Shown: piece after piece, positions 5,831-21,042 of the stretch | How the letters are laid out: each line of letters starts with the position of its first letter | How positions within the stretch are numbered: position 1 is the first letter of the stretch | Virus record (IMG/VR): IMGVR_UViG_3300032282_003330 | Span: 1-34,920 of that record | DNA length: 34,920 nucleotides | Source: a virus | Reading direction: 5' to 3' (one strand) | Translations under genes and position numbers: made by a program | The notes under the pieces: generated by a model | The model's input: the letters and a program-made list of their open reading frames with translations, nothing else | What the model was told of the DNA's origin: nothing | Database searches by the model: none

Positions 5831-6020
5831 TGACAAAAAGCACAATCCAAAAACAATAATGGCATTATTAAAATTAATGCTAGCAATGCGTAACGATTTG
5901 TCAAAAGAAGAAAAAGAAAGTGTTATAAAATTAGCAGAACAAATGATTTCAAAAGGCAAAAAAAAAGACCATGAAGATAAACAAATCTTTCCTATCCAAG
6001 ATTATAAAAGAAGAAATTAA
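5823..6020 (+). CDS. Small charged protein, unknown function
   Basis: 65 residues, Lys/Glu rich and probably helical (for example NDLSKEEKESVIKLAEQM). It overlaps the upstream signal-peptide gene by 8 nt and the downstream gene at 5971 by 50 nt in another frame, so its last 16 codons also encode the N-terminal leader of the next protein. No signal peptide, Cys or known motif. Confidence 0.5.
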   Translation: MSNDKKHNPKTIMALLKLMLAMRNDLSKEEKESVIKLAEQMISKGKKKDHEDKQIFPIQDYKRRN

Positions 6021-6447
6021 ACGAGTTCTTTATGAAGATGAACCTTCTTGGACAACGGATGCCATTAAACTCTTTATAGACATAAGAGATAACTCTAGAG
6101 CTACAAATCCAGATCATGACACAAAAGAAAATTTTATAAAACAAATAGAAGCTTTAACAGGACGTAATACAGGTGAGGTTTTTTCTTATCTACGTGGAAA
6201 AATAGATAAAGATTTATATGTTCATGTTGCACAATTATTAAATAACGTAGTAGATATTGATTTATTGGGCGATGAAGATTTAATGTCTCCATCATATAAA
6301 TCTAAAAATCCAACTAGAAGCGAAATAGACGACTTCAGAAGCCCTTATAAAACAGATGCCCCTTCTACATATAATAGAAAACCACAACCTATTTCTCCAC
6401 AAGATCAAGAAGATACTCGGGATAAAAAGAAAAATTGGGTACACTAA
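5971..6447 (+). CDS. Putative internal virion protein with capsid-targeting-like leader
   Basis: 158 residues. The N-terminus MKINKSFLSKIIKEEIKRVL aligns position by position with the starts of the proteins at 6715 and 17247 (MK..K.[FY]L.K[IL]I.E[EA][IL]), which fixes this ATG as the start despite the 50-nt overlap with the 5823 gene and a weak ribosome binding site. I-K-E14 followed by E15 fits the (I/L)-x-E rule of T4-type prohead proteases. The rest is hydrophilic, with a charged and Pro-rich C-terminus and no enzymatic motif. Inference: a protein packaged into the prohead, trimmed by gp21 and possibly ejected with DNA. Confidence 0.55.
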   Translation: MKINKSFLSKIIKEEIKRVLYEDEPSWTTDAIKLFIDIRDNSRATNPDHDTKENFIKQIEALTGRNTGEVFSYLRGKIDKDLYVHVAQLLNNVVDIDLLGDEDLMSPSYKSKNPTRSEIDDFRSPYKTDAPSTYNRKPQPISPQDQEDTRDKKKNWVH

Positions 6448-6448
6448 C

Positions 6449-6643
6449 ATGAGCGAAAGACCAGAAATCGGTGGAAAAAGCGAAGGTAAAAGATGCGGCG
6501 GTGCATGCAAACATAGCAGCACATATCACCAAGTAAAATGGTTTGATAAATTTACAAGCATGTATTATTATGGTTGTGCATACGTAGATTGTAAATGCAT
6601 GAATTATGTAGCAACTGATATTAATAATACAGATATACGCTAA
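6449..6643 (+). CDS. Small cysteine-rich protein, unknown
   Basis: 64 residues starting MSERPEIGGKSEGKRCGGAC one base after the previous stop; the longer frame from 6356 is mostly out-of-frame overlap with the 5971 gene and is rejected. Five Cys in two clusters (C-x3-C near residue 14, then GC....CKC) plus His could form a small zinc site, or disulfides if oxidised. No family is recognised. An AT-only T7G/CA7 inverted repeat follows (6644-6668). Confidence 0.5.
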   Translation: MSERPEIGGKSEGKRCGGACKHSSTYHQVKWFDKFTSMYYYGCAYVDCKCMNYVATDINNTDIR

Positions 6644-6714
6644 TTTTTTTGTCTTATTGGCAAAAAAAAATACCATTTACTATAATTTTGTAGTTTTTTA
6701 AAAAGGAGAAAGTT

Positions 6715-6984
6715 ATGAAAGTTACAAAGCAATATTTAAAGAAGTTGATTATGGAAGAATTGACAAAAGAAATGTCTGCACCAGTTTCAACAGAGGAAAA
6801 GTCTGGACAAATTCCATCACAAGAGGTTCCATTAAGTGAAAAAAGCTGTTTAAGAGCTGCTGGTGTTATTAATAAGATTTTAAAGTATCATGCACCTACA
6901 GTAGAAAAACATTTTGGTCGTGATACCGTAGATGCGCTTAAAAAGGCAGCCGCGTATTTGCCAGAAATATGGCCTGCTATATAA
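6715..6984 (+). CDS. Putative internal virion protein with capsid-targeting-like leader
   Basis: 89 residues with a strong AAAGGAG ribosome binding site. The N-terminus MKVTKQYLKKLIMEELTKEM matches the leaders at 5971 and 17247, with I-M-E14 then E15 as the expected gp21 cut site. After cleavage a protein of about 75 residues would remain: a Pro/Ser/Glu-rich linker followed by a compact, partly hydrophobic domain with one Cys, ending in PEIWPAI. The gene is followed by a strong terminator and is apparently the last gene of its unit. Its role after packaging is unknown. Confidence 0.6.
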   Translation: MKVTKQYLKKLIMEELTKEMSAPVSTEEKSGQIPSQEVPLSEKSCLRAAGVINKILKYHAPTVEKHFGRDTVDALKKAAAYLPEIWPAI

Positions 6985-7021
6985 TATATCTGTAGACATA
7001 CAACAAAACTTGTAGTAACAT

Positions 7022-7053
7022 GACCGTTAAGAATACCACTTAACGGTCTTTTT
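7022..7053 (+). terminator. Rho-independent terminator
   Basis: Perfect 10-bp stem GACCGTTAAG / CTTAACGGTC with a 7-nt loop, followed by TTTTT. It separates the small-protein group from the Mre11-Rad50 gene. Confidence 0.9.
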
Positions 7054-7086
7054 GTATCGTGATAGTGTGTAGTTACTGGAGGAAGA

Positions 7087-10000
7087 ATGAAATTTGCACA
7101 TCTGTCAGACACCCACATTAAGCTACTAAAAGAGCACGATAGTTATAGAATTGTTTTTGATGAAATTTATAAAATTTTAAAAGAAGAAAAAGTTGATGCC
7201 GTTATTCATACAGGCGACCTTTTTCATACAAAAATTCAATTAACTCCAGAAGCAATTTCAATGGCTACAGATTTTTTGCGTTCATTGGCAGAAATTGCAC
7301 CATTGTATATTATTCCCGGCAACCACGACACCAACTTAAAAAATAATTCAAGAATGGATTCTATTACTCCAATTATTCAAGCAATAAATCACAATAATAT
7401 CTTCTATCTAAAAGATAGCGGAGAAATGGCTATTAGTGACGATTTTACGCTAAATGCTTTTAGCTTGCTTGACCAACAAAATTGGTCTAAACCATCTAAT
7501 CCAGAAAAAATCAATATCGCTCTTTTTCACGGTTCTGTTGCAGGAGTAAAAACGGATATTGGCTACGTCATGGAACACGGTGAATTTGACGTAAATATAT
7601 TTGACGGTCATGATTATGCATTTTGTGGCGACATACATATGTCTAATCAAATCCTTGATACAGAAGGAAAAGTTAGATATTGCGGCTCTACCGTTCAGCA
7701 AAACTTTGGCGAAACAGACGATAAGGGTTTCCTAATTTGGGATATCCAAAGCAAGGAAAGCTTCAGCTGCAAGCACTATGCCATTCCAAATCCTCGTCCA
7801 TTTGTCACTTTGACATTGGATGAAAACGGCGTATTGCCCGAGATTGACGTTAAGAAAGGTGCAAGAGTTCGCATCGTTGCTGACAAGAACGTAACGCTAG
7901 AAAAGGTTAAAAAGGCCACAGAGGTCGTTAAAAGCCGTTTCCAGCCTGAGAGTGTAACCTTCGTTAACAAAGCGGTTATCTCAAAGGCATCACAAGATGA
8001 AATTAATAGTATTGGTCATGCAGATAATTTGCGTGACCTTGGTGTACAAGAACGTCTTATCCGCGATTATCTAAAAGATTTCAAGGCAGAAGAAGAGGTA
8101 GTAAACAAAGTTGTTGACCTAAACAAGAAGCTTTCTTCTGCTATTGAAGAAGGTGAAGAAATTAATCGTAATGTTCGCTGGTCCCTTAAAGAATTAGAGT
8201 GGGATAACCTATTTAATTATGGCGAGGGCAATCGTGTCAATTTCGGAGACCTATCAGGAATCGTTGGTATTTTCGGCAAGAATTATTCTGGCAAATCTTC
8301 TATTGTTGACAGCATGCTTTATACTTTGTTTAATACCACTGCCAAAAACAACAGAAAAAACCTAAACGTCATCAACCAAAACAGAGAAAAAGGTCGTGGC
8401 AAAGTCAAGATTGAAATTGACGATGGTGAATACGTCGTTGAACGCAAGTCTGAAAAGTATATTAAGAAACTAAAGGGCGTCGAAACAATCGAAGCTAAGA
8501 CGGATGTAGAATTTACTTCATCTAATGAATCGTTGAATGGTCTTGCTCGTAATGATACGGACAAGAATATTCGTCGTTTCCTTGGAACGGTTGATGACTT
8601 TTTCTTGACAAGTATGGCTAGTCAGTTTGGTTATCTTTCATTTATTTCTGAAGGCTCAACCAAGCGTAAAGAAATTCTTGCGAAGTTCCTTGATTTGGAA
8701 AACTTTGACAAGAAGTTCAAGCTTGCAAAAGATGAAAGCGCAGAATTAAAGGGCTTGCTCAAAAAGCTTGAAGGCGTAGATTACAAGCGTGATATTGCTA
8801 ACGCTGAAACACAATTATCTGTTCTTGATAGCACGTTAGCTGAACAAAAGAGCCTTGTAGAACAACTACGTGGAAAAGTTATGGATGCAAATGAAACACT
8901 TTGTCAGTTACAAAAGAGTATTGCTAACGTTCCAAACCTTGTTCTTAATTGGGACGATATCAACAGTCAATTAAATTCATATCGTGCGGATAGAAAGAGA
9001 ATCGGTGAAGAAAATGTTTCTCTAGAAAGCGAAATTGCAAAGCTAGAAACTCTTTCACTAAAGATTGATGAATTCCTTTCTAATCTTGATGAAAAGGAAT
9101 TGATGTTAAAAGACCAACAGCTTAAGTTTATTAACGATCAAGTAAGAATTTTGGAACGAGATTATGGTCTTGCTACAAATGAAATTGCTGCGTCTGATAA
9201 AAAGATTAAGCTACTTGACCAAGTTCCATGCGGCGATAAATTCCCAACATGTAAATTCATCAAAGATGCGTTTGCTGCAAAAGAATCCTATGATGATTTG
9301 GTAAAAAACCAATCATTGATGAGTGGTACTTTGCGTGAAACAAAAGAAAAGTTTAATGTTCTTGATGCCGAAGTATCTGATGGTTTGAAAAAGCTTTCTG
9401 ATATCAAGAAGAAGCGTCTAGAAACAACCACAAAACTATCTTCTTGTCAGCTAAAATTAGAAAAGAACAAGAATACAGTTATCAATCTTGATAAAAAGAT
9501 TGAAGAGGCAGAAGAAAAGCTAAAACTTTACAACGATAATCGTGAAGCTATTGAGAATTATGAAAAGCTTTTAGCTGATCGTGAAGATGCAAAGCGTAAT
9601 GTTGCATTTTATACAAAAAAACTAACAGACGTAGAACATGAAATTGTAGAACTCTACAAAAATCACGGTTCTGTTTCTGCTAAAATCGATATATTCCGTA
9701 AGCAAGAAGCTGAATTACAAGATTTGCGGAAACAATATAGCGCATATGATTTGTTTTTAACATGTATGCATCCTAGTGGTATATCTTATGAGATCATCAA
9801 GAGCAAACTTCCTGAGATTAATCAGGAAATTGCTAAGATATTGGCAAATGTTGTTGAGTTTTCTATTTATCTTGAGAACGATGATGATAAATTAGATATT
9901 ATGATTAAACATCCTAAATATGATGCACGTCCACTTGAAATGGGAAGCGGCGCAGAAAAGACCTTAGCTTCTACAGCTATTCGTCTTGCCTTATTAAATG

Positions 10001-10215
10001 TTACTACGCTTCCAAAAGGTGATATTTTTATCATGGATGAGCCGGGAACTGCACTAGACGCAGAAAATCTAGACGGCTTTGTAAGAATTTTAGAACTAAT
10101 TAAGGGATATTTCAAAACTGTAATCTTGATTTCACATCTAGATAGCTTAAAAGACTGTGTAGATATGCAAATCGTTATCGATAGAAAAGAAGGTTTTGCA
10201 TACGTCAATCAATAG
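7087..10215 (+). CDS. Single-chain Mre11-Rad50 (gp47-gp46) recombination nuclease/ATPase
   Basis: 1042 residues joining two proteins that T4 encodes separately (gp47 and gp46). Residues 1 to about 260 are an Mre11/SbcD phosphoesterase: D8-T-H10, G43-D44, G78-N-H80-D81, H148 and G181-D-x-H184 are the metal-binding motifs. Residues from about 370 are Rad50/SbcC: Walker A near 397 (GKNYSGKSS), long coiled coils, a hook-like C715-x6-C722, a signature GSGAEKT near 952, Walker B FIMDE with D984/E985, and an H-loop (LISHLD). The complex resects DNA ends for recombination-dependent replication. It has a GGAGGA ribosome binding site and its own start after a terminator. Odd features: the fusion itself and a hook spacing wider than the usual C-x2-C. 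Confidence 0.93.
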   Translation: MKFAHLSDTHIKLLKEHDSYRIVFDEIYKILKEEKVDAVIHTGDLFHTKIQLTPEAISMATDFLRSLAEIAPLYIIPGNHDTNLKNNSRMDSITPIIQAINHNNIFYLKDSGEMAISDDFTLNAFSLLDQQNWSKPSNPEKINIALFHGSVAGVKTDIGYVMEHGEFDVNIFDGHDYAFCGDIHMSNQILDTEGKVRYCGSTVQQNFGETDDKGFLIWDIQSKESFSCKHYAIPNPRPFVTLTLDENGVLPEIDVKKGARVRIVADKNVTLEKVKKATEVVKSRFQPESVTFVNKAVISKASQDEINSIGHADNLRDLGVQERLIRDYLKDFKAEEEVVNKVVDLNKKLSSAIEEGEEINRNVRWSLKELEWDNLFNYGEGNRVNFGDLSGIVGIFGKNYSGKSSIVDSMLYTLFNTTAKNNRKNLNVINQNREKGRGKVKIEIDDGEYVVERKSEKYIKKLKGVETIEAKTDVEFTSSNESLNGLARNDTDKNIRRFLGTVDDFFLTSMASQFGYLSFISEGSTKRKEILAKFLDLENFDKKFKLAKDESAELKGLLKKLEGVDYKRDIANAETQLSVLDSTLAEQKSLVEQLRGKVMDANETLCQLQKSIANVPNLVLNWDDINSQLNSYRADRKRIGEENVSLESEIAKLETLSLKIDEFLSNLDEKELMLKDQQLKFINDQVRILERDYGLATNEIAASDKKIKLLDQVPCGDKFPTCKFIKDAFAAKESYDDLVKNQSLMSGTLRETKEKFNVLDAEVSDGLKKLSDIKKKRLETTTKLSSCQLKLEKNKNTVINLDKKIEEAEEKLKLYNDNREAIENYEKLLADREDAKRNVAFYTKKLTDVEHEIVELYKNHGSVSAKIDIFRKQEAELQDLRKQYSAYDLFLTCMHPSGISYEIIKSKLPEINQEIAKILANVVEFSIYLENDDDKLDIMIKHPKYDARPLEMGSGAEKTLASTAIRLALLNVTTLPKGDIFIMDEPGTALDAENLDGFVRILELIKGYFKTVILISHLDSLKDCVDMQIVIDRKEGFAYVNQ

Positions 10216-10222
10216 GAGAAAA

Positions 10223-10513
10223 ATGATGGCTAATATGGGACTAAAAGAAGAAGTAAAAGAAGAAATAAGTGATTTAGATAAAAGAATGGAAGTAGAACGT
10301 AAAAAATTAGATGGTTCACGTCTAGGATTGGTTGATTTGGTGACTGAGAAGTTTGTTTCTCGTAAATTAATGGTATGGGGAATAGCTACAGTGCTCTTAT
10401 GGACAACTAAAATCACCCCAGATGAATGGACAGCTATTACTTTGGGCTATGTAGGTATAGAAGGCATGGCAGATTTAGCAGTAAAATGGAAATCCGCAGG
10501 AAAAAAGGAATAA
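10223..10513 (+). CDS. Holin-like small membrane protein
   Basis: 96 residues from the ATG at 10223; the next codon-aligned ATG at 10226 is equally possible. AGGAG lies 4-7 nt upstream, and the longer frame from 10196 would overlap the previous gene. It has a charged helical N-terminal half, then SRKLMVWGIATVLLWTTKIT, probably one membrane segment, followed by a second moderately hydrophobic stretch (WTAITLGYVGIEGMADLAVK) and a basic tail. Similar one- or two-segment proteins are often phage holins. The next two genes look spanin-like, which supports a lysis cassette. The assignment rests on topology and context. Confidence 0.5.
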   Translation: MMANMGLKEEVKEEISDLDKRMEVERKKLDGSRLGLVDLVTEKFVSRKLMVWGIATVLLWTTKITPDEWTAITLGYVGIEGMADLAVKWKSAGKKE

Positions 10514-10517
10514 TATA

Positions 10518-10916
10518 ATGATTAAATTAAAACAATACTGGAATAAGTTTAAAGTTTGGATTGGACTTTTTGTTGCTGGAGTGGCTTTAAGTTTTCTAGT
10601 ACTTAGAAAATACGTAGGCGATGGTTTAGAACAACAACGAGAACAATACAAAAAAGAAGAAGAAGCAAAAATAGCAGCAGAACAAAAATTAGCTAAAGAA
10701 ACAAAGAAGCTAGAAGAAAAGAAACAAGAAGAAATAAAGGTAGTAGATGAAGATAAGAAACAAAAACTAAAAGAAGTGGTAGCAAAAGCAAAGGAAGAAA
10801 AAAGAAGATTAGTAGAAGAAGCTAAACGTGACCCACAAGGCTTTAAAGTAGAGCTAAAGAAAGAACTTGGTGTAACTGAAAAGAAAAAGAAAGGCTCTCG
10901 CAAGAAAAATGGCTAA
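10518..10916 (+). CDS. N-anchored coiled-coil membrane protein (i-spanin-like)
   Basis: 132 residues. There is one N-terminal membrane segment (about residues 12-30, VWIGLFVAGVALSFLVL), then an almost purely Lys/Glu/Ala coiled coil (about 40-110) and a basic tail. This is the architecture of inner-membrane spanin subunits (Rz type), but it also fits generic membrane-anchored coiled coils. It overlaps the next gene by 8 nt, and that gene encodes a signal-peptide protein, recalling nested Rz/Rz1 pairs although the overlap is small. No endolysin is seen in the window. Confidence 0.45.
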   Translation: MIKLKQYWNKFKVWIGLFVAGVALSFLVLRKYVGDGLEQQREQYKKEEEAKIAAEQKLAKETKKLEEKKQEEIKVVDEDKKQKLKEVVAKAKEEKRRLVEEAKRDPQGFKVELKKELGVTEKKKKGSRKKNG

Positions 10917-11412
10917 TTTAAAATCTTTAGTATCACTTATTACGCTGCTAGCGTTCCTAGCGGTGCGGATTCCTATTGCCTATGCCCTACCTCCAGCACC
11001 TGCAGCTGGAGTAGAAGCTATAGCAGAGGATGAATATGAAGATGGCGATTATGTTGTAGTTAAACAGGGCGAAGAAGCGCCTTATGACGGTTTTCTTTTT
11101 GATTCTGAGGGGTTATCTAAGGTAATTGCTAATAAAACGTTTCAATTAGATAAACTAAGAATAGAAAAAGATAGTGAAATAGCTAAACTAAATTTAGATA
11201 TTAAGTATCTTAAAGAACAACAAGCTTTAGAACTTAAAATAAGTAAAGAATTAAGTGATAATATAGTAGTTATTAAAGATAAAAGAATACAGCAATTAGA
11301 AGATAGTAAAAAATGGGATGATGTTAAGCTATTTGGTTCTATGTTACTAGGAATGGCTTTGTCAGTAACAATATTTTATGCAGCGGTGAAAATAACCAAT
11401 GTCAATCAATAA
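10909..11412 (+). CDS. Exported, C-terminally anchored coiled-coil protein (lysis/spanin-like)
   Basis: 167 residues. Signal peptide at residues 1-26 (SLITLLAFLAVRIPIAYA, cut probably after A-Y-A), acidic segment, then GEEAPYDGFLFDSEGLSKVI, a Pro-Tyr/Phe-Asp-Gly motif I associate with small phage lysis/spanin-like proteins. A coiled coil follows (about 70-135), then a C-terminal membrane segment (about 142-162, GSMLLGMALSVTIFYAAV). A periplasmic coiled coil tethered at the C-terminus recalls unimolecular spanins, but there is no lipobox Cys in the leader. It overlaps its neighbours by 8 and 14 nt. Function is inferred. Confidence 0.5.
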   Translation: MANLKSLVSLITLLAFLAVRIPIAYALPPAPAAGVEAIAEDEYEDGDYVVVKQGEEAPYDGFLFDSEGLSKVIANKTFQLDKLRIEKDSEIAKLNLDIKYLKEQQALELKISKELSDNIVVIKDKRIQQLEDSKKWDDVKLFGSMLLGMALSVTIFYAAVKITNVNQ

Positions 11413-11791
11413 AAAAGATCCTAACTATATCGCAGCACTAGAAAAAGCAGTAAAAGAAAAATACGGAGAACTAGCTACAATGCATCCAAAGTATTTCTGG
11501 AATCAAGAAAAAGAAAGAGAGTACGTTGCTGACACTAAAGAAACAGTGAAAAAGCAGCTAACTAATGAACAATCCAGAGAAAAAGTGGATTTAGGCGGGA
11601 TTTTAATACCAAAGAAACTAATTAGTAAAAATGACAATAAGGACTGTACTGTTTGTAAACAATATAGTTTCAGTAAAGAAGATGATGTATATTTAAATAA
11701 ATTCAGTACCTGTAAGAAATGTTATGTTCAACATATAGAAGACAGGGAAGAAAGATGGATGTCTGGTTGGCGTCCAAATGGAGATAAATAA
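11399..11791 (+). CDS. Zinc-ribbon protein upstream of the terminase, unknown
   Basis: 130 residues: a charged N-terminal helical region (NPNY...EKAVKEKYGELATMH type), then a treble-clef or ribbon-like C-terminal part with CTVC and, about 25 residues later, CKKC, four likely zinc ligands, ending RWMSGWRPNGDK. It overlaps the lysis-like gene by 14 nt and abuts the next ATG. Position close to the large terminase makes a DNA-binding packaging or late-regulatory role possible, but it does not look like T4 gp16. No family recognised. Confidence 0.55.
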   Translation: MSINKKDPNYIAALEKAVKEKYGELATMHPKYFWNQEKEREYVADTKETVKKQLTNEQSREKVDLGGILIPKKLISKNDNKDCTVCKQYSFSKEDDVYLNKFSTCKKCYVQHIEDREERWMSGWRPNGDK

Positions 11792-12304
11792 ATGGCTAGT
11801 ATCCTAGATGTAGTAAACGGAATTTCACAAGCTCTTCACGCTAAGCATCACGGTGGATCAGAAATTGGTTTAAAGCGCGAAACAGAAGATTTATTACAAG
11901 GATGCTCTATTTATGACCCCAGAATGATGGATGGTTTTGGTGTTCAATACCAAGGTGATATGTTAATTCTTAAATATCACAGTGAAATGCCATTAACAAA
12001 AGTGCATGATAAAAACTTTGAAACTGATATCCGTCAAACAATGAAGGATATTAAAAAGTTTCTTGAAAAAGAATATAAAAAAGTAACTAAAAAATCTCTA
12101 GACTTAACTGAATTTGGCGATACTAACATTTTAGTTCAAAGCGCAAATCGCAGAACATCATATATTAATGCAGTACAAACATATAAAATTGGTGGAATAG
12201 ATGGTAATAATTTTGAAGCCAAAGCACCAGAACATGAAAATTATAGCGATATTGCCAAGCGTTGGTTAATGAATTGCCGTCAATCAAAAACATATCTTAA
12301 ATAG
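11792..12304 (+). CDS. Conserved-looking phage protein before the terminase, unknown
   Basis: 170 residues starting MASILDVVNGISQALHAKHH, mixed alpha/beta in character, with a central charged helix (KDIKKFLEKEYKKVTKKSL) and no Cys-pair motif. It starts directly at the previous stop and ends 17 nt before gp17. The small terminase gene normally lies here, so it is a candidate for that role or for another head-packaging factor. The sequence does not show the typical N-terminal DNA-binding helices plus oligomerisation core clearly, so I leave it unnamed. Confidence 0.55.
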   Translation: MASILDVVNGISQALHAKHHGGSEIGLKRETEDLLQGCSIYDPRMMDGFGVQYQGDMLILKYHSEMPLTKVHDKNFETDIRQTMKDIKKFLEKEYKKVTKKSLDLTEFGDTNILVQSANRRTSYINAVQTYKIGGIDGNNFEAKAPEHENYSDIAKRWLMNCRQSKTYLK

Positions 12305-12321
12305 GAAATAAAGGTGATGGC

Positions 12322-13899: not shown

Positions 13900-13903
13900 A
13901 TAA

Positions 13904-15907
13904 ATGGCTAATGATAATAACGGTTTTAAAAGCGGCAATCCATTAAATAATAAACGTGATGATGGAGATCCATCACAAAAGAATCCTAGAAATCGTCAAT
14001 CTCCATTATATGTTGGATTAACAAGATTATTTTCTGGTCCATTAGCTAATTTTCGTTCTCAATCACAAATACGTTATAAGCGCCGTGATTTAGATCGTTA
14101 TAAGTTTACCAGTACTAGCGGTCAGAGTTTTAAACGTAAAAGTTATAATCCATTTGAAGCCATACAAAGTAATATTATGGCAAATCAAACCCGTGCAGAA
14201 CGTTATAGTGACTTTGATCAAATGGAATTCATGCCAGAAATAGCTTCTGCTATGGATATTTATGCAGATGAAATGACTACTAGCAATCAATATCGTCAAG
14301 TAGTTATTATTGACAGCAAGAACGAAGAAATAAAAAACTTATTACATAATTTATATTTTAATATTCTTAATGTCGAAAGCAATCTTTTCTCTTGGTGCCG
14401 AACAATGTGTAAGTTTGGCGATTTCTTTTTATATCTAGATATCGATGAAAAAATAGGTGTTAAAAGCGTTCTAGGCTTACCTTCTCCAGAAGTAGAACGT
14501 CTAGAAGGAGAAGATGAAAGCAATCCTAACTATGTTCAATTTCAATGGAACAGTGCTGGTTTAACTTTTGAAAATTGGCAGATAGCACATTTTAGAATTG
14601 GCGGTCAAGATAAGTATATGCCATATGGCACTTCAATTTTAGAACCAGCCAGACGTATTTGGCGTCAATTACAGTTAATGGAAGACGCAATGATGGCTTA
14701 TCGTATTGTTCGCTCACCAGAGCGCAGAGTATTTTATATTGATGTAGGCAATATTGCTCCACAAGAAATGGAACAATATATGCAAAAAGTTATTACTCAA
14801 ATGAAACGTAATCAAATCGTTGATCCAACAACTGGTCGTGTAGATTTACGTTATAACCCAATGAGTATTGATGAAGATTATTTCTTGCCTGTTCGTGGTA
14901 CACAAAGCGCAACAAAAATTGATACTTTAAAAGGCGGTGAATTTACTGGTGATATTGATGACGTTCAGTATCTTCGTGATAAATTATTTTCCGCATTGAA
15001 GATCCCACAAGCATATCTTGCCCGTGGAAAAGACGCTCCAGAAGATAAAACCACATTAGCACAAAAAGATATACGTTTTGCAAGAACTATTCAAAGATTA
15101 CAAAGAGTATTAATCGAAGAATTAGAAAAAATTGGCATTATTCATCTTTATACACTTGGATATCGTAATGAAGATTTATTAAAGTTTAGACTTCGCCTTA
15201 ATAATCCATCAAAAATTAGCGAATTACAGGAAATTGAACACTTTAAGGCACAATTAGAAGTAGCCGCAGCTGCTAAAGAAAACGGCTTTTCAAAACGTTG
15301 GGTATTTGAAAACCTATTTAAGATTAACGATAGTGACTTTACACGTATTCAGCGTGATTTGTTTTACGATAAACAATTTGAAAAGGCTGTTGAAGCTGGA
15401 GAAGCAACAGATACTGGTACAGTTGGTGGTTCTACGTTAAATACCGATTTAGGTGCCGCACCAGCTGGTGCTGAAACTCCAACTCCCAGTGGTGAAACTC
15501 CAACTCCGGGTGGTGAAGGGGAAACAACAGGCACAGAAAGTACCGCTGGTGGAACAGAAGCTTCTGAAACATCGTTATTAGCTGCTCCTGCTCGTCGTGA
15601 AGATGGTTCTTATATGACCAAAGGTGCTAATGGAAAATGGTATAAGCCTGTTACACATGATGGCCGTGGTTCAGGTGCAAGAACAAGACACATTTCTTCT
15701 CAACATACACCAGAATCTGTAAAATCTACTTATAGAAATATATTTGCAGGATCAAAAAGTCTCTCTCAAGCAGGAAAAGGTATATTCAATGAAAATACAG
15801 AAGAAGTATTTGAGAAAGAGGAAAAAATGTTGTTAGAAATGGAAAATAAATTAAATTCACTTTCTGAAAAACTACTTAAAGAAGAAAAAGACACGGAGAA
15901 TAAGTAA
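13904..15907 (+). CDS. gp20: Portal vertex protein (gp20-like) with low-complexity C-terminal extension
   Basis: 667 residues, longer than T4 gp20 (524). Residues 1 to about 500 show T4-type portal features: MPEIASAMDIYADEM, FRIGGQDKYMPYGTSILEPA, WRQLQLMEDAMMAYRIVRSP, LRDKLFSALKIPQAYL. The dodecameric ring initiates head assembly, docks gp17 and binds the neck. After about residue 500 comes a Gly/Thr/Pro/Glu-rich linker with a TPTPSGE/TPTPGGE repeat, then a basic segment (WYKPVTHDGRGSGARTRH) and an acidic coiled-coil end (about 635-667). The extension may contact the scaffold or interior proteins; this is inference. Confidence 0.93.
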   Translation: MANDNNGFKSGNPLNNKRDDGDPSQKNPRNRQSPLYVGLTRLFSGPLANFRSQSQIRYKRRDLDRYKFTSTSGQSFKRKSYNPFEAIQSNIMANQTRAERYSDFDQMEFMPEIASAMDIYADEMTTSNQYRQVVIIDSKNEEIKNLLHNLYFNILNVESNLFSWCRTMCKFGDFFLYLDIDEKIGVKSVLGLPSPEVERLEGEDESNPNYVQFQWNSAGLTFENWQIAHFRIGGQDKYMPYGTSILEPARRIWRQLQLMEDAMMAYRIVRSPERRVFYIDVGNIAPQEMEQYMQKVITQMKRNQIVDPTTGRVDLRYNPMSIDEDYFLPVRGTQSATKIDTLKGGEFTGDIDDVQYLRDKLFSALKIPQAYLARGKDAPEDKTTLAQKDIRFARTIQRLQRVLIEELEKIGIIHLYTLGYRNEDLLKFRLRLNNPSKISELQEIEHFKAQLEVAAAAKENGFSKRWVFENLFKINDSDFTRIQRDLFYDKQFEKAVEAGEATDTGTVGGSTLNTDLGAAPAGAETPTPSGETPTPGGEGETTGTESTAGGTEASETSLLAAPARREDGSYMTKGANGKWYKPVTHDGRGSGARTRHISSQHTPESVKSTYRNIFAGSKSLSQAGKGIFNENTEEVFEKEEKMLLEMENKLNSLSEKLLKEEKDTENK

Positions 15908-15908
15908 T

Positions 15909-16721
15909 ATGAAACATAATAAGAAAAGAAATACCGCTTTTCTTTATGAAGTATTAGTTAGAGAAGGCACAAAAGCGACCTTAAATAAAGACATTAATAA
16001 ATTATCTATTATTAAATCTATTTTATTAGAGTATTTTAATCCTAATTCAATCCTTTCTGAAGAATTAAAGCTTTACAATAATTTAAGAACTCCAGAAGTA
16101 AGTCAAGAATTAAGTGATAAATATTTAACAGAAGTTAAAAATAGATATGATCGCCTTAATAAACAATATCTCTTTAACGAACAAACCAAATTAATTAATA
16201 CAATTAATAAAAAACTTGGAATGGATATTTATAATAATTTTATTCCATACTATAAAGATTTAGCTACTATTTCTCAAATATTTAATAATTCCACTACAGT
16301 TAAAGAAAAACTTTTACTTGAAGAAGAAATATTAACGAAATTTGAAAAAATAAATGAAGATAAACAATTAAAACCTATTGATAGCATTGTTTATAACAGC
16401 TTCGTTAAGAAATTTAATGAGAAATATTCTAATTTACTTTCTGAACAAAAAGATTTATTAACAAAATATATTAATTCTTTTGCCGATGATGGTTTAGAAT
16501 TAAAAATTCATTTAAATGAAGAAATACAAAAATTAAATGAAAAAGTAAATAAAGCATTAGAATTTACAGAAATAAAAAATGATGATTTTATGTACAATAA
16601 AACTAAAAAAGTTTTAGACGTATTAAAAGAATTTAGACAAAATAAAAATATATCACAAGAGATGTTAGAAAGTCTTTTAAAAATTCAACAGTTTGTTCAT
16701 GAGGTAGAAACTAATGATTAA
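15909..16721 (+). CDS. Head-operon helical protein, unknown (possible prohead core component)
   Basis: 270 residues, Lys/Asn/Leu rich and largely alpha-helical, starting MKHNKKRNTAFLYEVLVREG. I recall this N-terminal pattern from T4-like environmental phages, always near the portal, but know no function. It starts one base after the portal stop and overlaps the next gene by 8 nt. In T4 the small core genes 67 and 68 occupy the interval between 20 and 21, so a core or scaffold role is a reasonable positional guess. No catalytic or metal motif is seen. Confidence 0.6.
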   Translation: MKHNKKRNTAFLYEVLVREGTKATLNKDINKLSIIKSILLEYFNPNSILSEELKLYNNLRTPEVSQELSDKYLTEVKNRYDRLNKQYLFNEQTKLINTINKKLGMDIYNNFIPYYKDLATISQIFNNSTTVKEKLLLEEEILTKFEKINEDKQLKPIDSIVYNSFVKKFNEKYSNLLSEQKDLLTKYINSFADDGLELKIHLNEEIQKLNEKVNKALEFTEIKNDDFMYNKTKKVLDVLKEFRQNKNISQEMLESLLKIQQFVHEVETND

Positions 16722-17235
16722 AGTTGTTATTAAAGATAAAAAGGGCGAAGAAAAACAAATAGATATCCGTAAAACACTTTCTGGAGATTTAATGTTACGT
16801 GAACATCCAGATATCGATATTATTGTAATGCCACAAAAACAAAAAGTATTAGTTCTTCCTAAAGACGAACAAACTGATTCTATTTATAAACTTCAAGAAC
16901 GTCTTTTTAAATACATGGTTCAAAAAGGTGTTATTTTACCTGAAAGCGTTTTTTCTGGCAATGTATATGGCTCTTTGCAGGGCAATTATCCACAACAAGG
17001 ACCAGAAGGCGTAGATCCTTTACAAGTTGTTGTATATAATCTTGCTAATTTTATTGAAGATGAACGTCCAGCTTTTGAATATGAAAAAGCTTATGCTGAT
17101 GCTATTGAAAGAGAATTACTTGCACCAGACGCAGAAGATTCTACAGAACTTGGCGAAGTACCACAAGAGCCATACAAAGGTTCTATTCCAAAATACGGTT
17201 TCCCAACCCGTGGTATTTATCGTTATAATTATTAG
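16714..17235 (+). CDS. Head-operon protein, unknown
   Basis: 173 residues. The N-terminal half looks like a small beta-rich domain (MIKVVIKDKKGEEKQIDIRK, then DIDIIVMPQKQKVLVLPKDE), the middle is helical (TDSIYKLQERLFKYMVQKG), and the C-terminal part is acidic and Pro-rich, ending GFPTRGIYRYNY. It lies between the 270-residue head-operon protein and a protein with a capsid-targeting-like leader, so it is probably a head-assembly component. No family name can be given. Confidence 0.6.
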   Translation: MIKVVIKDKKGEEKQIDIRKTLSGDLMLREHPDIDIIVMPQKQKVLVLPKDEQTDSIYKLQERLFKYMVQKGVILPESVFSGNVYGSLQGNYPQQGPEGVDPLQVVVYNLANFIEDERPAFEYEKAYADAIERELLAPDAEDSTELGEVPQEPYKGSIPKYGFPTRGIYRYNY

Positions 17236-17246
17236 GAAACAAATAG

Positions 17247-17864
17247 ATGAAATTATTAAAAAATTATTTAAGAAAATTAATTTTAGAAGCAATAGAAGAA
17301 GTTTACGTTCCTGACAATGATGGTTTTGGAGGAGGAAAGTTTGTAGATGACAAAGGAAATGTTAAAGCTTCTCTTCCTGTTATTACAAAATATCCAAGAG
17401 CAAAAAATCCTTTAAAAGATGATCAATTATTTATTGATACTTTTAAACCAATTATAACTTTTTCTTTTAATATGCCTGATTTTCCTAAAAGATCAACGCA
17501 TGATTTATCAAGTATGGAACCTGTTCATTCTTTAACTACTATATTATCTAGCATAAATTATAGAAGAAATAAAGATAAAAAAAGTAACGTCACTACTGCT
17601 GAATATGTAAATGCAGATTTTGGAAGTTCTTTTTCTCCAGAAGAAGTAAAAAAAATTGCAGATGCTATTGAAATATATGGTAATTTTGTAAATGGAGAAA
17701 GAGTAGAAGAAATATACAGAAATTTAGGTGGTCCAATTACATCTTATACTCCTTCCGTTAAGCCATCAGAAAAATCAGGTCCAAAAACTGTTAGCATGAA
17801 ACCTCCCGGTGTTTTTGAAGAAGCGTCAAAAAATAAAAAAGTAAAAATAAAATGCAATTATTAA
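17247..17864 (+). CDS. Putative internal virion protein with capsid-targeting-like leader
   Basis: 205 residues. MKLLKNYLRKLILEAIEEVY aligns with the leaders at 5971 and 6715, with I-L-E14 then A15, the closest of the set to the T4 internal protein site (I-x-E then A). The mature part has a Gly-rich start (DGFGGGKF), a central Ser/Thr/Asn-rich region, a short helical segment (SPEEVKKIADAIEIYGNF) and a Lys-rich tail. It lies in the head operon just upstream of the gp21 protease. Ribosome binding site GGAAAC. Function after packaging is unknown. Confidence 0.6.
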   Translation: MKLLKNYLRKLILEAIEEVYVPDNDGFGGGKFVDDKGNVKASLPVITKYPRAKNPLKDDQLFIDTFKPIITFSFNMPDFPKRSTHDLSSMEPVHSLTTILSSINYRRNKDKKSNVTTAEYVNADFGSSFSPEEVKKIADAIEIYGNFVNGERVEEIYRNLGGPITSYTPSVKPSEKSGPKTVSMKPPGVFEEASKNKKVKIKCNY

Positions 17865-18118
17865 CTTTTTTATTAGCTTCTTATGGTATGACAATGATTT
17901 TAGTATATGGAAAGATTTTTGATTCCATAAGGCCGAATTATCATTTTTTTAAATGTTGTCTTTGTATGGGTTGGTGGGTTGGAGTTTTTAATTGGTTTAT
18001 ATTATCAACACAATTTAATTGGTTTTCAGCAGGATGCATAAGTGCTGGTACTTCTTATTTATTAAGTCGTTTAGTTGATGATGATGGAATATTAATTAAA
18101 TTGAAAAAACAAAATTAG
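17852..18118 (+). CDS. Small membrane protein with CxxC-type motif in the head operon
   Basis: 88 residues: a hydrophobic N-terminus (LLTFLLASYGMTMILVYGKI), a loop FDSIRPNYHFFKCCLCMGWW with clustered Cys, a second hydrophobic stretch (WWVGVFNWFILS) and a third (FSAGCISAGTSYLLS), then a charged tail. It probably has two or three membrane segments. The FKC.LCMG.W.G pattern resembles small membrane proteins I have seen in other T4-like phages, but no function is known to me. It overlaps the previous gene by 13 nt. A membrane protein here might help head-membrane assembly or host-envelope effects. Confidence 0.55.
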   Translation: MQLLTFLLASYGMTMILVYGKIFDSIRPNYHFFKCCLCMGWWVGVFNWFILSTQFNWFSAGCISAGTSYLLSRLVDDDGILIKLKKQN

Positions 18119-18120
18119 GT

Positions 18121-18131
18121 AACTATTTATA
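18121..18131 (+). promoter_or_regulatory. AACTATTTATA motif, candidate late promoter for the gp21-gp23 block
   Basis: Immediately follows the stop of the membrane protein gene and precedes a 23-codon ORF with a strong ribosome binding site. Same motif as at 2943, 26878 and 29746. Confidence 0.5.
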
Positions 18132-18152
18132 AATGATTGGAGGTGTTTACCT

Positions 18153-18224
18153 ATGAAGCAAGAAATCACCTATATTAGACGTTATTTACTCCAGCCAGTG
18201 CGCCGTTGCTGTAATGGTAGCTGA
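18153..18224 (+). CDS. 23-residue mini-ORF, possible leader peptide upstream of gp21
   Basis: ATG-to-TGA ORF of 23 codons beginning MKQEITYIRRY and ending PVRRCCNGS, basic (four Arg) with a Cys pair. A strong TTGGAGGT ribosome binding site sits 9 nt upstream, partly inside a small AGGT-GTTT-ACCT hairpin. It lies between a candidate promoter and a GC-rich hairpin, with gp21 starting 48 nt after its stop. It could be a regulatory leader peptide, a tiny structural protein, or part of a non-coding RNA. No homologue recognised. Confidence 0.45.
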   Translation: MKQEITYIRRYLLQPVRRCCNGS

Positions 18225-18228
18225 ATTT

Positions 18229-18254
18229 AGCCCCGATGAAATACTCGGGGCTTT
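18229..18254 (+). terminator. GC-rich hairpin with short U tract, possible leaky terminator or attenuator before gp21
   Basis: 8-bp perfect stem AGCCCCGA / TCGGGGCT with an 8-nt loop, followed by only TTTAACCTTT rather than a long T run. It ends about 18 nt before the gp21 start, leaving no room for a promoter in between, so gp21 must be transcribed through it. Confidence 0.6.
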
Positions 18255-18272
18255 AACCTTTAAAAGAAAATT

Positions 18273-18884
18273 ATGTCAAAAGAATTATTAAGAGAATGGT
18301 ATGAACTTTGTGATGGAGGAACTTGTCAAGATTTATTGACAGAGCAAGAGAAATCTTTTGTCAAAAGCGGTGGTTTGATTTTAACTGGTGTCATGCAACG
18401 CGCTGATAAAGAAAACGGCAACGGTCGTGTTTATGGTCGTCGTGTTTTAGAACGGGAAGTCAATAATTATATAAAGATTGTTGAAGATCGTCGTGCATTA
18501 GGCGAGTTAGACCATCCAGAAGATTCCGTAGTTAATTTAAAAAATGTTTCCCATATGGTATTAAAAGTTTGGTGGGATACTGATGCAGTAATGGGAAAAG
18601 TAAAAGTATTAGATACTCCATCTGGTAAAATTTTACGTTCTCTTGTAGAGAGTGGAGTTAAATTAGGTATTTCAAGTCGTGGTCTTGGTAGTACAAGAAA
18701 AGAAGGCGGCAAAACAATTGTAGAAGATGATTTTCAGCTTATTTGTTTTGATTTCGTTCAAGAGCCAAGCACTCCCGGCGCTTTCATGATGAGTGAGAAT
18801 AAAAAGCGTACTATTGATCCAAATAAAATTTGGACAAAAGCAGACCGCTTGAACAGATTATTAAATGATATTGTAAAAGGATAA
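18273..18884 (+). CDS. gp21: Prohead protease (gp21-like)
   Basis: 203 residues, similar in length to T4 gp21 (212). The serine protease residues are visible: H81 in LGELDHPED, S134/S135 in LGISSRGLG, and D160 in LICFDFVQEPS, the pattern of the T4 prohead/herpesvirus-assemblin-like fold. GNGRVYGRRVLEREV is also typical. It cleaves capsid, scaffold and core proteins inside the prohead after (I/L)-x-E. Its own N-terminus carries L-T-E24, a possible self-cleavage site. No good Shine-Dalgarno sequence precedes the ATG, and a hairpin sits just upstream, so expression may be kept low relative to its neighbours. Confidence 0.93.
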   Translation: MSKELLREWYELCDGGTCQDLLTEQEKSFVKSGGLILTGVMQRADKENGNGRVYGRRVLEREVNNYIKIVEDRRALGELDHPEDSVVNLKNVSHMVLKVWWDTDAVMGKVKVLDTPSGKILRSLVESGVKLGISSRGLGSTRKEGGKTIVEDDFQLICFDFVQEPSTPGAFMMSENKKRTIDPNKIWTKADRLNRLLNDIVKG

Positions 18885-18891
18885 AACTAAA

Positions 18892-19281
18892 ATGTCGGAA
18901 TTTCAATATAAAGCAGGTTTAAGTAATGTTGGTAGTTATCAAGTAAGCGGTATACCGTTCGTAACTAGCTCTTTAGCTCCTGTTGTAAGCGACCCACCTG
19001 TAAAAATTAGTTTTCCAACAGTAACAAAGTTTATCATTGTTAAAAACGTTAATGCAAGTAATAAAAAAGTAAGAGTCGGATTTAGCAGTAATGGCGTTGT
19101 TGGAACAAATTATTTTTTACTTTCACAAAATGAAAGTTTTACTGCCGATGTAAAAGTATCTAGTATATTTATTGTTGGGAACGGAGCAGACACAGTAGAT
19201 GTTTCTATAGTAGCAGGTTTAACTGGAATTGACTCTTTGCAATTACCTAATAATTGGTCTGGTTCAGCAGGAGTGGGATAA
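18892..19281 (+). CDS. Small beta-rich structural protein, probable virion decoration or fibre base
   Basis: 129 residues, beta-type: MSEFQYKAGLSNVGSYQVSG opens it, then TVTKFIIVKNVNASNKKVRV and FLLSQNESFTADVKVSSIFI. There are no Cys and no signal peptide. I recall similar YK.GL.NVGSYQVSG proteins in other T4-like phages near capsid genes, but have no proven role to cite. It lies between the protease and a fibre-like gene in the capsid block, so a surface decoration or fibre-base role is inferred. It is one base from the next ATG, implying linked expression. Confidence 0.55.
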   Translation: MSEFQYKAGLSNVGSYQVSGIPFVTSSLAPVVSDPPVKISFPTVTKFIIVKNVNASNKKVRVGFSSNGVVGTNYFLLSQNESFTADVKVSSIFIVGNGADTVDVSIVAGLTGIDSLQLPNNWSGSAGVG

Positions 19282-19282
19282 A

Positions 19283-20500
19283 ATGTCATTTAATGACGGA
19301 TTTTCCAATTACAGCATTCCATTTGTATCGCCTCTTCCAAACACTTCTTCTATATTGATATCAACGCCAGATGGAACTGGATGGGAAGCCGCAGGGATTG
19401 TAGACCAAGCCATAAGTTCATCTGTCTATGTTATTGAGACAGTTGAAACTTCTGGAAACATTGAAGGTAATGGAGCGCCAGCAGACAAGGTTAGATTAAA
19501 AAATAATATTTCTTTAAGTTCTGTAACCGCATCGTTTAGTGGCAATGGTTCGCAAGTTACTAATATAACAGCTTCTAATATTACCAACTTTACAAGCGAT
19601 GTAAGAAACCAATTTAGCGCCGGAACAAATATTGATATAACAAATGGTAATGTTTCAACAGTTAATGTGCCAACAAGAAGCGAACTGAGTGGCGCTTTTA
19701 CAACTCCAGCACAAGTAACTGGCGCATTTGCCGTTGTTACTGCTGCTAACGCAACAAATGCTGCAACCGCATCTTACGTAGCAACAGGTTCCGCGATTCC
19801 AACATTTACAAGCGATGTAAGAAACCAGTTCTCCGCTGGTGCTAATTTAACCTATTCTGCGGGGCAATTCGCTCTTAATGCTAATGTCAACACAACTAGC
19901 GTAACCGCATCGTTTAGTGGCAATGGTTCGCAAGTTACTAATATAACAGCTTCTAATATTACAAACTTTACAACAGATGTACGCAATCAAATAAGTGGTA
20001 GCCAATATGTAAATTATAATACGGCATCTGGCGTTGTTTCACTACCATATACCGGCTCTACTCTTGGAACAACGGCATTAATTCTTGGGCAAACAGCGAC
20101 AAATATATCTGGTATTAATTCTATAAACGCTATAAGTATTACTGGTTCTCTACTCAGTAATAGATTGGTATTGTCGCAATCTGGCGTTCAAACAATCTCT
20201 AACACAACAACTGCTGTTGCTCCAACGGGTCCATTTCATAAAATTACTTTAACTTCTAATATAACTTTATCAACAGCTATAGCACAAATAGTTTGGCCGG
20301 GAGCGGTTTCTGGCGATATGCTAATAATTTATAACGTTCCAACAAGCACTGGTGATTTAAAATTTACTAGAGGTGCTACAACTAAGGTTGCTCTTGCTGG
20401 TGCAACGGTAAATTTATCTCAAGGCGGAAATATTTCATTTATTTATGATGGCACAAATTGGGTTGAATTTGGTGCTATAGGTGGTACTTCTGCACCGTAA
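19283..20500 (+). CDS. Fibre-like protein with internal repeats (head or tail fibre)
   Basis: 405 residues from the ATG MSFNDGFSNYSIPF; the longer frame from 19229 overlaps the previous gene and is not preferred. Low-complexity Ser/Thr/Asn/Ala sequence with repeats: SVTASFSGNGSQVTNITASN occurs twice and FTSDVRNQFSAG twice, with a diverged FTTDVRNQISGS. The C-terminal region (about 310-405) looks like a distinct beta domain (KITLTSNITLSTAI..., MLIIYNVPTSTG, IFFIYDGTNWVEF type), as in fibre tip domains. Placed in the capsid operon rather than beside the other fibres, it may be a head fibre or whisker. Two 73-bp direct DNA repeats underlie the protein repeats. Confidence 0.6.
   Translation: MSFNDGFSNYSIPFVSPLPNTSSILISTPDGTGWEAAGIVDQAISSSVYVIETVETSGNIEGNGAPADKVRLKNNISLSSVTASFSGNGSQVTNITASNITNFTSDVRNQFSAGTNIDITNGNVSTVNVPTRSELSGAFTTPAQVTGAFAVVTAANATNAATASYVATGSAIPTFTSDVRNQFSAGANLTYSAGQFALNANVNTTSVTASFSGNGSQVTNITASNITNFTTDVRNQISGSQYVNYNTASGVVSLPYTGSTLGTTALILGQTATNISGINSINAISITGSLLSNRLVLSQSGVQTISNTTTAVAPTGPFHKITLTSNITLSTAIAQIVWPGAVSGDMLIIYNVPTSTGDLKFTRGATTKVALAGATVNLSQGGNISFIYDGTNWVEFGAIGGTSAP
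19523..19595 (+). repeat. 73-bp direct repeat, copy 1, in the fibre-like gene
   Basis: Begins GTAACCGCATCGTTTAGTGG and ends AACTTTACAA; identical to copy 2 at 19901 except one base near the 3' end (ACCAAC versus ACAAAC). Spacing of 378 bp is a multiple of three, so recombination between copies keeps the frame. Confidence 0.95.
19901..19973 (+). repeat. 73-bp direct repeat, copy 2, in the fibre-like gene
   Basis: Second copy of the repeat at 19523, with one mismatch. A third, partial related segment (ACAAGCGATGTAAGAAACCA) at about 19807 also matches the sequence following copy 1. Confidence 0.95.
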
Positions 20501-20516
20501 TTTTAAGGATATATAA

Positions 20517-20588
20517 ATGGCTACTTTTACAGATTGTGCAGAAAATTTAACATGCGCCACCTTATCGGGAAGTAATGGCATAGGATAA
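20517..20588 (+). CDS. 23-residue mini-ORF, unknown or remnant
   Basis: ATG-to-TAA ORF starting MATFTDCAENLTCATLSG with a good AAGGA ribosome binding site 7 nt upstream, in the gap between the fibre-like gene and the internal-protein candidate. Two Cys, no charged core. It could be a tiny real gene or the truncated start of a lost structural gene; no homologue recognised. Confidence 0.35.
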   Translation: MATFTDCAENLTCATLSGSNGIG

Positions 20589-20643
20589 AAAAATTAACAA
20601 TCTAATATTTATATTATATTATATGTATTGATTGTGAGGGTAT

Positions 20644-21042
20644 ATGAAAAAAGAAGAATTAAAACAAATCATCAAGCCTTTAATAAAAGAATGTTTAAAG
20701 GAAGTATTAATAGAAGAAGGTTTTTCAAAAATGTTAAGCGAAAGTGCAAGAAGTTCTGCACAAGTGCCGACAATAAATAATATTCAATCTACAAAATCAA
20801 AAAATAATTTACAAGAAATTTCTCTTAATAAACAAAATCAATTACAAGAAAATAAAAAGAAAATGTTAGATTCTATTGGTACTGCCGGTTTTGATCCTTT
20901 TGCTGGAAGCCAACCGTTAAAAGAAGATAAAGAGGTTATTGCATCAGATCCCGGTATAGATATTAGCAAATTATTAGGTGAAAATAAACAAGTTTGGAAA
21001 CAAACATTAAATGCCCTTAATGGCAAGAAAGAAAAAGAGTAA
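20644..21042 (+). CDS. Putative core or internal protein with a related N-terminal leader
   Basis: 132 residues. The N-terminus MKKEELKQIIKPLIKECLKE is an amphipathic Lys/Ile/Leu/Glu helix related in style, though not position by position, to the leaders at 5971, 6715 and 17247. It contains I-K-E then C and I-E-E then G, possible gp21 sites. The rest is hydrophilic, Ser/Asn/Gln rich and likely disordered, ending DISKLLGENKQVWKQTLNAL. The GTGAGGG ribosome binding site lies after an AT-rich imperfect inverted repeat (ACAATC...GATTGT). Position before the scaffold gene fits a prohead core role. Confidence 0.5.
   Translation: MKKEELKQIIKPLIKECLKEVLIEEGFSKMLSESARSSAQVPTINNIQSTKSKNNLQEISLNKQNQLQENKKKMLDSIGTAGFDPFAGSQPLKEDKEVIASDPGIDISKLLGENKQVWKQTLNALNGKKEKE

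Follow-up and report, generated by a model that had tools for sequence, protein, structure and literature searches.

A shared N-terminal leader on otherwise unrelated proteins of T4-type phages as a probable head-targeting tag

The locus and its three leader genes

The window (i.e. the whole stretch of DNA analysed) comprises 34,920 bases of a virus record (IMGVR_UViG_3300032282_003330; GC 34%) from an uncultured T4-like phage. In it, three plus-strand genes, located at 5971..6447 (158 amino acids, aa; MKINKSFLSKIIKEEIKRVLYE followed by a helical body of unknown function), 6715..6984 (89 aa; MKVTKQYLKKLIMEEL) and 17247..17864 (205 aa; MKLLKNYLRKLILE|A, where the bar marks a predicted cut), have in common a leader of 16-22 residues that stands far above chance expectation. 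A sequence-only reading of the window had singled out these three starts and a related one in a fourth gene (20644), and all four open reading frames (ORFs) and their N-termini were confirmed as described. The same window holds a T4-type head cassette, composed of a portal protein (gp20-like; 13904..15907, plus strand; PF07230, E 1e-77), an S77 prohead protease (gp21-like; 18273..18884, plus strand; PF03420, E 1e-30), which bears out the earlier recognition of a gp21 gene and lies ca. 0.4 kb downstream of leader gene 17247, and a major capsid protein (gp23-like; 23164..24912, plus strand; PF07068, E 6.2e-70) with a T4-like pro-region. The protease has GEL-HP and SSRG motifs in common with T4 gp21, which we take to hold the catalytic residues. 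In gp23 the cut site of the lineage, LL[RK]E60|[AS] (LRE60|A in the window; E60 kept in 77 of 78 relatives), sits where T4 has LTE65|A, and LLE|G35 is also found as in T4, so that the gp23 of this lineage retains a predicted T4-type cut site, (L/I)xE|(A/S), in its pro-region. The scaffold (gp22) position, between the protease and gp23, is occupied by a 570-aa protein (21429..23141, plus strand) that matched no family in our family searches and has sites of the (L/I)xE type at LKE|A17, LGE|A140 and IVE|S496.

From 27 leaders of gp23-related loci (L005-L084, among them parts of G002, G004, G007 and G009; window excluded) we derived a score matrix (threshold 8 bits), which gave 27.9, 42.8 and 20.8 bits for 5971, 6715 and 17247, respectively, with none of the other 35 window genes above 0 bits. 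At this threshold it selected 3 of the 38 window genes versus 0 of 142 internal methionines and 0 of 760 shuffled N-termini, while over 15 records 2 of 9,961 internal methionines and 2 of 66,500 shuffles passed. The leader hidden Markov model (HMM; E 1.6e-10, 7e-10 and 7.4e-7 for the same genes) was built from 293 training rows that include the window's own leaders, and the matrix is for this reason the cleaner test. Furthermore, a blind all-against-all comparison of N-termini (homologous-body pairs left out) yielded in the window only the trio 5971/6715/17247, with 0 pairs in three control draws of internal methionines.

Behind the leader, each of the three bodies forms a singleton cluster and matched no Pfam or PHROGs family. 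The leader of 5971 is common to five distant relatives (I11-I16 and L20 invariant in the 6 sequences; overall identity 28-36%), and the structure model of this protein (mean pLDDT 67.7; 6 sequences) predicts a leader helix at 5-21 joined by a linker to a distinct helical body; Foldseek with this model gave no useful match (best E 2.0). The model of 17247 (mean pLDDT 45.9) is uninformative, and one relative of this protein, 92% identical, was found.

Such likeness could in principle come from chance resemblance of K/I-rich N-termini in an AT-rich genome, or from a DNA-level element at gene starts. The 34% GC of the window would fit this explanation, as would the fact that the blind search finds other shared starts, including groups that are not tags and that count against its specificity (MKKLFLLL, signal-peptide-like, in the phage immuto; VGDI/VGDL in G009 and G002; MNTEEIDFKFN in Mel-JY01). 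However, besides the internal-methionine and shuffle counts given above, the matrix tagged none of the 599 genes of four S77-lacking control records (31-44% GC), leaders are equally present at 43% GC (G021 and G046, each of which was found by the leader pattern and therefore must hold a leader), and leader codons vary synonymously. The conservation of the leader acts at the protein level. Conservation of DNA is thereby rejected, as are chance and base composition (on the shuffles, the internal-methionine controls and the control records), and we assign practically no probability to this explanation, which the controls already contradict.

Distribution of the leader and diversity of its bodies

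Over 294 representatives the leader has the consensus MK[IL]TKxxL[KR]x[IL]I[KR]EE[LI]xx[VL]LxE. The sequences fetched (gp23-related loci, pattern-found loci and long records) contain 394 distinct leader proteins, 383 of them complete with stop codon, and their bodies (first 20 residues removed; median length 119 aa) fell into 294 clusters at E 1e-3, of which 262 were singletons. This number varies with the settings (296 at E 1e-3 once low-complexity sequence is masked; 270 at E 0.05; 107 at E 1, including one cluster of 230 that was probably joined by chance matches), and 294 is an upper figure, as the excess seen with the 5971 protein shows, which the clustering set apart from L257:1622 and L319:12007, its likely distant relatives. 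The largest cluster has 38 members, chained via mixed bodies. A single gene family with a conserved start is rejected on the 294 body clusters. The idea of a modular N-terminal tag on otherwise unrelated proteins is supported by the matrix, the clusters and the blind comparison, and the expectation that the tag would lead to further candidates in relatives was borne out by the 383 complete proteins, in about 270-296 body clusters.

Within 9,262 ORFs the HMM gave 389 matches of at least 14 bits, with 322 at the start, 53 internal near a methionine (probably start-call errors), 11 internal and 3 C-terminal. One 395-aa protein (L341:1723-2910) has the leader twice internally, at residues 165-186 and 257-278, and is perhaps a fused multi-cargo protein; C-terminal copies alongside an N-terminal leader were seen in L172:7142-7825, L112:4972-5514 and L111:11263-12036. 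Six long relatives have 3 to 8 tagged genes each, and 17 were found in 480 kb of a 484-kb phage (G002, G004, G007 and G009 were picked for gp23 similarity and length). RM378, Mel-JY01 and immuto have 0 tagged genes by the matrix; immuto has shorter leader variants such as MKKSQLRQIIKEAL.

A degenerate leader pattern matched at least 120 stretches in IMG/VR versus 3 in 257 Gb of prokaryote genomes, and a related pattern with reordered residues (also starting MKxTK, and shorter than the leader pattern rather than an exact scramble of it; G055 came from it) gave 2 matches in IMG/VR. All 3 prokaryote matches lie in metagenome-assembled genomes (MAGs): the first has leaders, S77 and gp23 together on one contig; the second bin has S77 and gp23 on a contig other than that of the leaders; in the bin of the third neither S77 nor gp23 was found. 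The leader is nearly virus-specific, the origin of two of the three MAG contigs being undecided, and with 3 stretches in the prokaryote genomes the outcome that the sequence-only reading had named as damaging (a pattern common in non-phage proteins) did not occur.

Searched with tblastn against named phages, a leader peptide of 39 residues gave no match. In a literature text search the strings KIIKEEL and ENWRKFL were unmatched, and so was the T4 string MKTYQEFIAEA, hence such a search is insensitive and shows little on priority; matches to IIKEEL were judged by title to be unrelated, and a search by words for such leaders returned none evident from titles and abstract starts.

When the 125 longest of the 294 representatives were scanned with Pfam, about 7 matched at 1e-3. 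The bodies assigned in this way include a TseH-like one (L092:10031-10849, minus strand; E 9.3e-15; a Pfam family of type VI secretion effectors), a GNAT (L106:4679-5431), a pentapeptide-repeat protein (L106:3609-4229), DUF5824 (L209:7167-7910) and FliG_C (L104:117-494; Pfam E 1.8e-8), placed on this protein because it comes closest to E. coli FliG (E 0.005); MPM1 (L200:4907-5434) fell below the cut-off. The FliG_C protein is a possible phage-delivered flagellar motor mimic. PHROGs gave 15 families among the bodies (function-less except for one 'hol-like chemotaxis'), NCBIfam 23 (mostly pentapeptide) and PADLOC one methyltransferase. Judged by these family matches, the few recognisable bodies look effector-like, and most bodies are without any match.

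Leader anatomy and cleavage motifs

The information per position (294 representatives) is high to residue 16 and rises again slightly at 19-22, before almost vanishing from residue 24 on; residues 17 onward lay outside both the search pattern and the matrix. The motif [LIVM]xE[GA] occurs at 0.028 per site at residues 21-26 versus 0.0018 at 61-100, its counterparts with D, K or Q replacing E ([LIVM]x[DKQ]G) are absent at 21-26, and with E at 17-40 it is found in 81 of 294 representatives versus 25.2 +/- 4.5 after shuffling. T4-type cleavage motifs peak where leader conservation fades, after residue 22. The spacing L8/I11/I12/E14 of the leader equals that of Y4/F7/I8/E10 in the T4 internal protein IPIII, in which, according to an excerpt of the published work (PMC9026906), targeting depends chiefly on residues 4 and 7 and processing on residues 8 and 10.

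For the individual proteins, the earlier claim that all of them carry (I/L)-x-E cleavage sites held in part: 17247 (ILE|A at 14) and 20644 (IEE|G and LSE|S) fit the strict form (L/I)xE|(A/G/S), 5971 has sites with an acidic P1' residue (IKE|E and LYE|D), and 6715 has only IME|E and no canonical site, so that the claim does not extend to every leader.

Association with the prohead protease and the head cassette

Out of the at least 120 IMG/VR matches, 80 rows (79 contigs) provided 40 leader-pattern records of 18 kb or more, and 47 control-pattern rows provided 36. S77 was found in 27/40 of the former versus 4/36 of the latter (Fisher p 5e-7), a contrast that record size explains in part (at 100 kb and above, 8/8 leader versus 4/7 control records). 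The T4 portal was present in 28/40 leader-pattern records, and 2 further records from the reordered pattern have both S77 and the T4 portal. Within the six long records, tagged genes make up 24/210 genes within 15 kb of the protease versus 17/1,169 elsewhere (p 1e-10, circular treatment; 21/194 versus 20/1,185 when treated as linear), and 41/41 of them lie on the protease strand versus 1,258/1,379 of all genes. In one record (LR756508.1, W04) the S77 match falls in two pieces ca. 1 kb apart within one 576-aa ORF (156507-158102); its portal match is also in two pieces, and insertions such as inteins are possible.

In five of the six long records, as in the window, a tagged gene lies within ca. 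2 kb of the protease. This proximity is what would be expected if the tagged proteins were parts of the prohead core or scaffold, co-assembled via the leader and, after cleavage, kept in the head or lost. Two further points favour such a role: T4 IPIII affects head assembly (excerpt of PMC9026906), and a conserved cassette protein resembles the leader. The latter, encoded at 20644..21042 (plus strand; leader-like start LIKECLKEVLIEEG), is a weak match to the HMM of the leader (7.6 bits, E 0.01), and 4/46 members of its family reach 8 bits versus 0/920 shuffles; the related leader ascribed to this gene is thus upheld as a weak resemblance, whereas its role as a cargo gene is rejected, since the family occurs in 50/86 loci. 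Its product is probably a core protein. Like the T4 prohead core proteins gp67 and gp68, it is small, lies within the head cassette and has (L/I)xE sites near its start; unlike them, it is encoded between the protease and scaffold genes, gp67 and gp68 lying between those of portal and protease, and the likeness is one of size, cassette membership and sites. For the tagged proteins as a whole, the near-complete turnover of bodies between relatives (262 of 294 singletons), where a core part should be conserved, argues against a structural role, as do the many tagged genes more than 30 kb away from the head genes and the few bodies with enzyme-like domains, and we regard the role of core parts as unlikely. 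Elsewhere in the window, a 1,042-aa ORF (7087-10215) fuses nuclease (Metallophos) and ATPase (AAA_23) parts that in T4 are the separate genes 47 and 46.

A second leader and further leader groups

Some related phages carry a second leader type, MKLIMENWRKFLTE (MENWRKFLTE), with 45 matches at N-terminal methionines versus 4 at 16,074 internal ones and again with the IPIII spacing. Among homologous GNAT bodies, that of L106 has the first leader and those of L187, L093 and L201 (E 6e-19, 9e-15 and 1e-12) the second. A body of 570 aa occurs with the second leader in L152 and, at 55% identity, with a weak first leader (<8 bits with the HMM) in L127. Both leader types appear to do the same job, and we take this exchange on homologous bodies as the best sign of it.

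The geometry hydrophobic-x-x-hydrophobic-[LIVM]-x-E recurs in leader groups that the blind comparison found in other S77 phages: MKxxIKxLLRE in a 362-kb phage (G088, L420-L437; 8 of the 10 shown), MxLKDLLFE in a 484-kb phage (9 of the 10 shown), LKKFLVEN in the cultured Flavobacterium phage immuto (4/4) and RLTESDLHxIVKE in a 412-kb phage (6/6, selected out of 8 group members). Two further blind-found groups do not conform to it (1/5 and 1/4), and in T4 the comparison returned one similar pair only. G088, which was picked by the control pattern, has ten unrelated MKxxIKxLLRE proteins and a second group starting KKLIITEEQYxRL. The unrelated proteins starting IIRLTESDLHNIVKESVNKILSE in G055 (412 kb, L438-L457) represent a further candidate address tag. 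Immuto (vB_FspM_immuto, grown on Flavobacterium sp. LMO8; MW353176.1, W03) has two leader groups, MKKSQLRxIIKEAL and NFDLKKFLVENKLTxNSKLL, the blind comparison placing leader genes at 102250, 102836, 113144 and 123311 and the LKKFLVEN genes at 1803, 103762, 117587 and 118588; proteomics of this phage was not found in the literature listings.

As a yardstick, the N-terminal geometry pattern followed by A/G/S was applied to 149 kb of T4 (220 ORFs), where it selects 5, namely ipII, ipIII, gp2 (the DNA-end protector), gp24 (the gp21-cleaved vertex protein) and pseT.1, and misses ipI. Without its last residue, the geometry occurs in the first 28 residues of 168/1,593 genes in seven S77 phages (leader genes included, the 8 grouped genes of immuto dropped) versus 16/599 in four controls, and with tagged genes removed in 115/1,539 versus 16/598 (p 1e-5); at residues 41-68 the two sets hardly differ (55/1,264 versus 18/449). 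We tentatively propose, at a confidence somewhat short of evenly balanced, that large S77 phages may carry lineage-specific sets of N-terminal address tags, unlike in sequence and often of this one geometry, which would deliver interchangeable effectors in the virion (candidate cargo being the mimic of the FliG C-terminal domain, the TseH-like hydrolase and acetyltransferases).

Interpretation

Taken together, these observations lead us to consider that the leader is most likely a head-targeting (capsid-targeting) tag. We infer the following roles for the tagged proteins: the leader would form an amphipathic helix that docks the protein on the growing prohead core; at prohead maturation the S77 protease would cut at an (L/I)xE site within the leader or immediately after it and thereby free the body inside the head; and the freed body would be ejected with the DNA and act as an effector in the new host. 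Cleavage of every leader is in our view less probable than head targeting, and delivery of tagged effectors into the host is about evenly balanced.

Several observations weigh against this interpretation. Some tags are internal (11) or C-terminal (3) among the 389 HMM matches; the sites of 5971 have only acidic P1' residues and 6715 is without a canonical one; the four-residue spacing common with IPIII would also be expected from a generic amphipathic helix; the S77 phages RM378, G077 and G091 give no leader group in the blind comparison; and S77 is lacking in 13 of the 40 leader records (all 13 below 100 kb; two of them with the T4 portal and one with gp23), in addition to the effect of record size noted above. 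Such unpaired leader records and S77 phages, together with the fact that a K/I/E-rich amphipathic helix could bind many things, would suit a leader that has nothing to do with the head and directs its protein to a different place or partner, such as a membrane, a polymerase or some other phage complex. The link of the leader with S77 and the head cassette, the peak of cleavage motifs at its end and its exchange with a leader of the T4 capsid-targeting geometry all speak against such a target, which we consider improbable.

In large uncultured phages the majority of genes lack an assigned function. Should the leader be a packaging address, it would allow the small uncharacterised proteins that enter the virion, and are the first to act in the host, to be predicted from sequence alone, and the predicted cargo would include candidate anti-defence and host-takeover proteins. 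Moreover, what T4-like phages of water bacteria inject would become a testable list, one for which a cultured Flavobacterium phage carrying such leaders is available.

Comparison with known systems

In the Pelagibacter phage HTVC008M, 0 of 48 genes in 40 kb fit a pattern resembling the capsid-targeting sequence (CTS) of T4. In the cyanophages S-WAM2 and S-H9-1, homologues of one cargo body start with MKTFKQLREE, which is suggestive and is without a canonical site. In giant phages of the SPN3US type, many head proteins are processed by the prohead protease and ejected, according to the abstract starts of three reports (PMC5694885, PMC7411985, PMC10052503). In this they resemble the cargo proposed here; the comparison is one of described behaviour, and these abstract starts mention no shared modular leader.

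The closest parallel is offered by the internal proteins of T4. As excerpted from one report (PMC12373910), IP1-3 have only the leader in common and each inhibits different GmrSD enzymes. Like the CTS of IPI, IPII and IPIII, the leader is short, N-terminal and placed on unrelated bodies, with S77 in the same phage and an (L/I)xE motif, and it agrees with IPIII in the spacing of four functionally important positions. It differs in sequence (MKITKxxLKxIIKEEL versus MKTYQEFIAE, the two not being homologous), in length (ca. 22 residues versus 10-19 in T4), in its far greater number of bodies and in that cleavage and packaging are predictions here. Since its sequence is unrelated and its packaging a prediction, we do not class the leader as a member of the T4 CTS; by analogy, it most likely works like one. 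If this is true, the capsid-targeting principle of T4 would be general in its geometry, with the sequence turning over between lineages.

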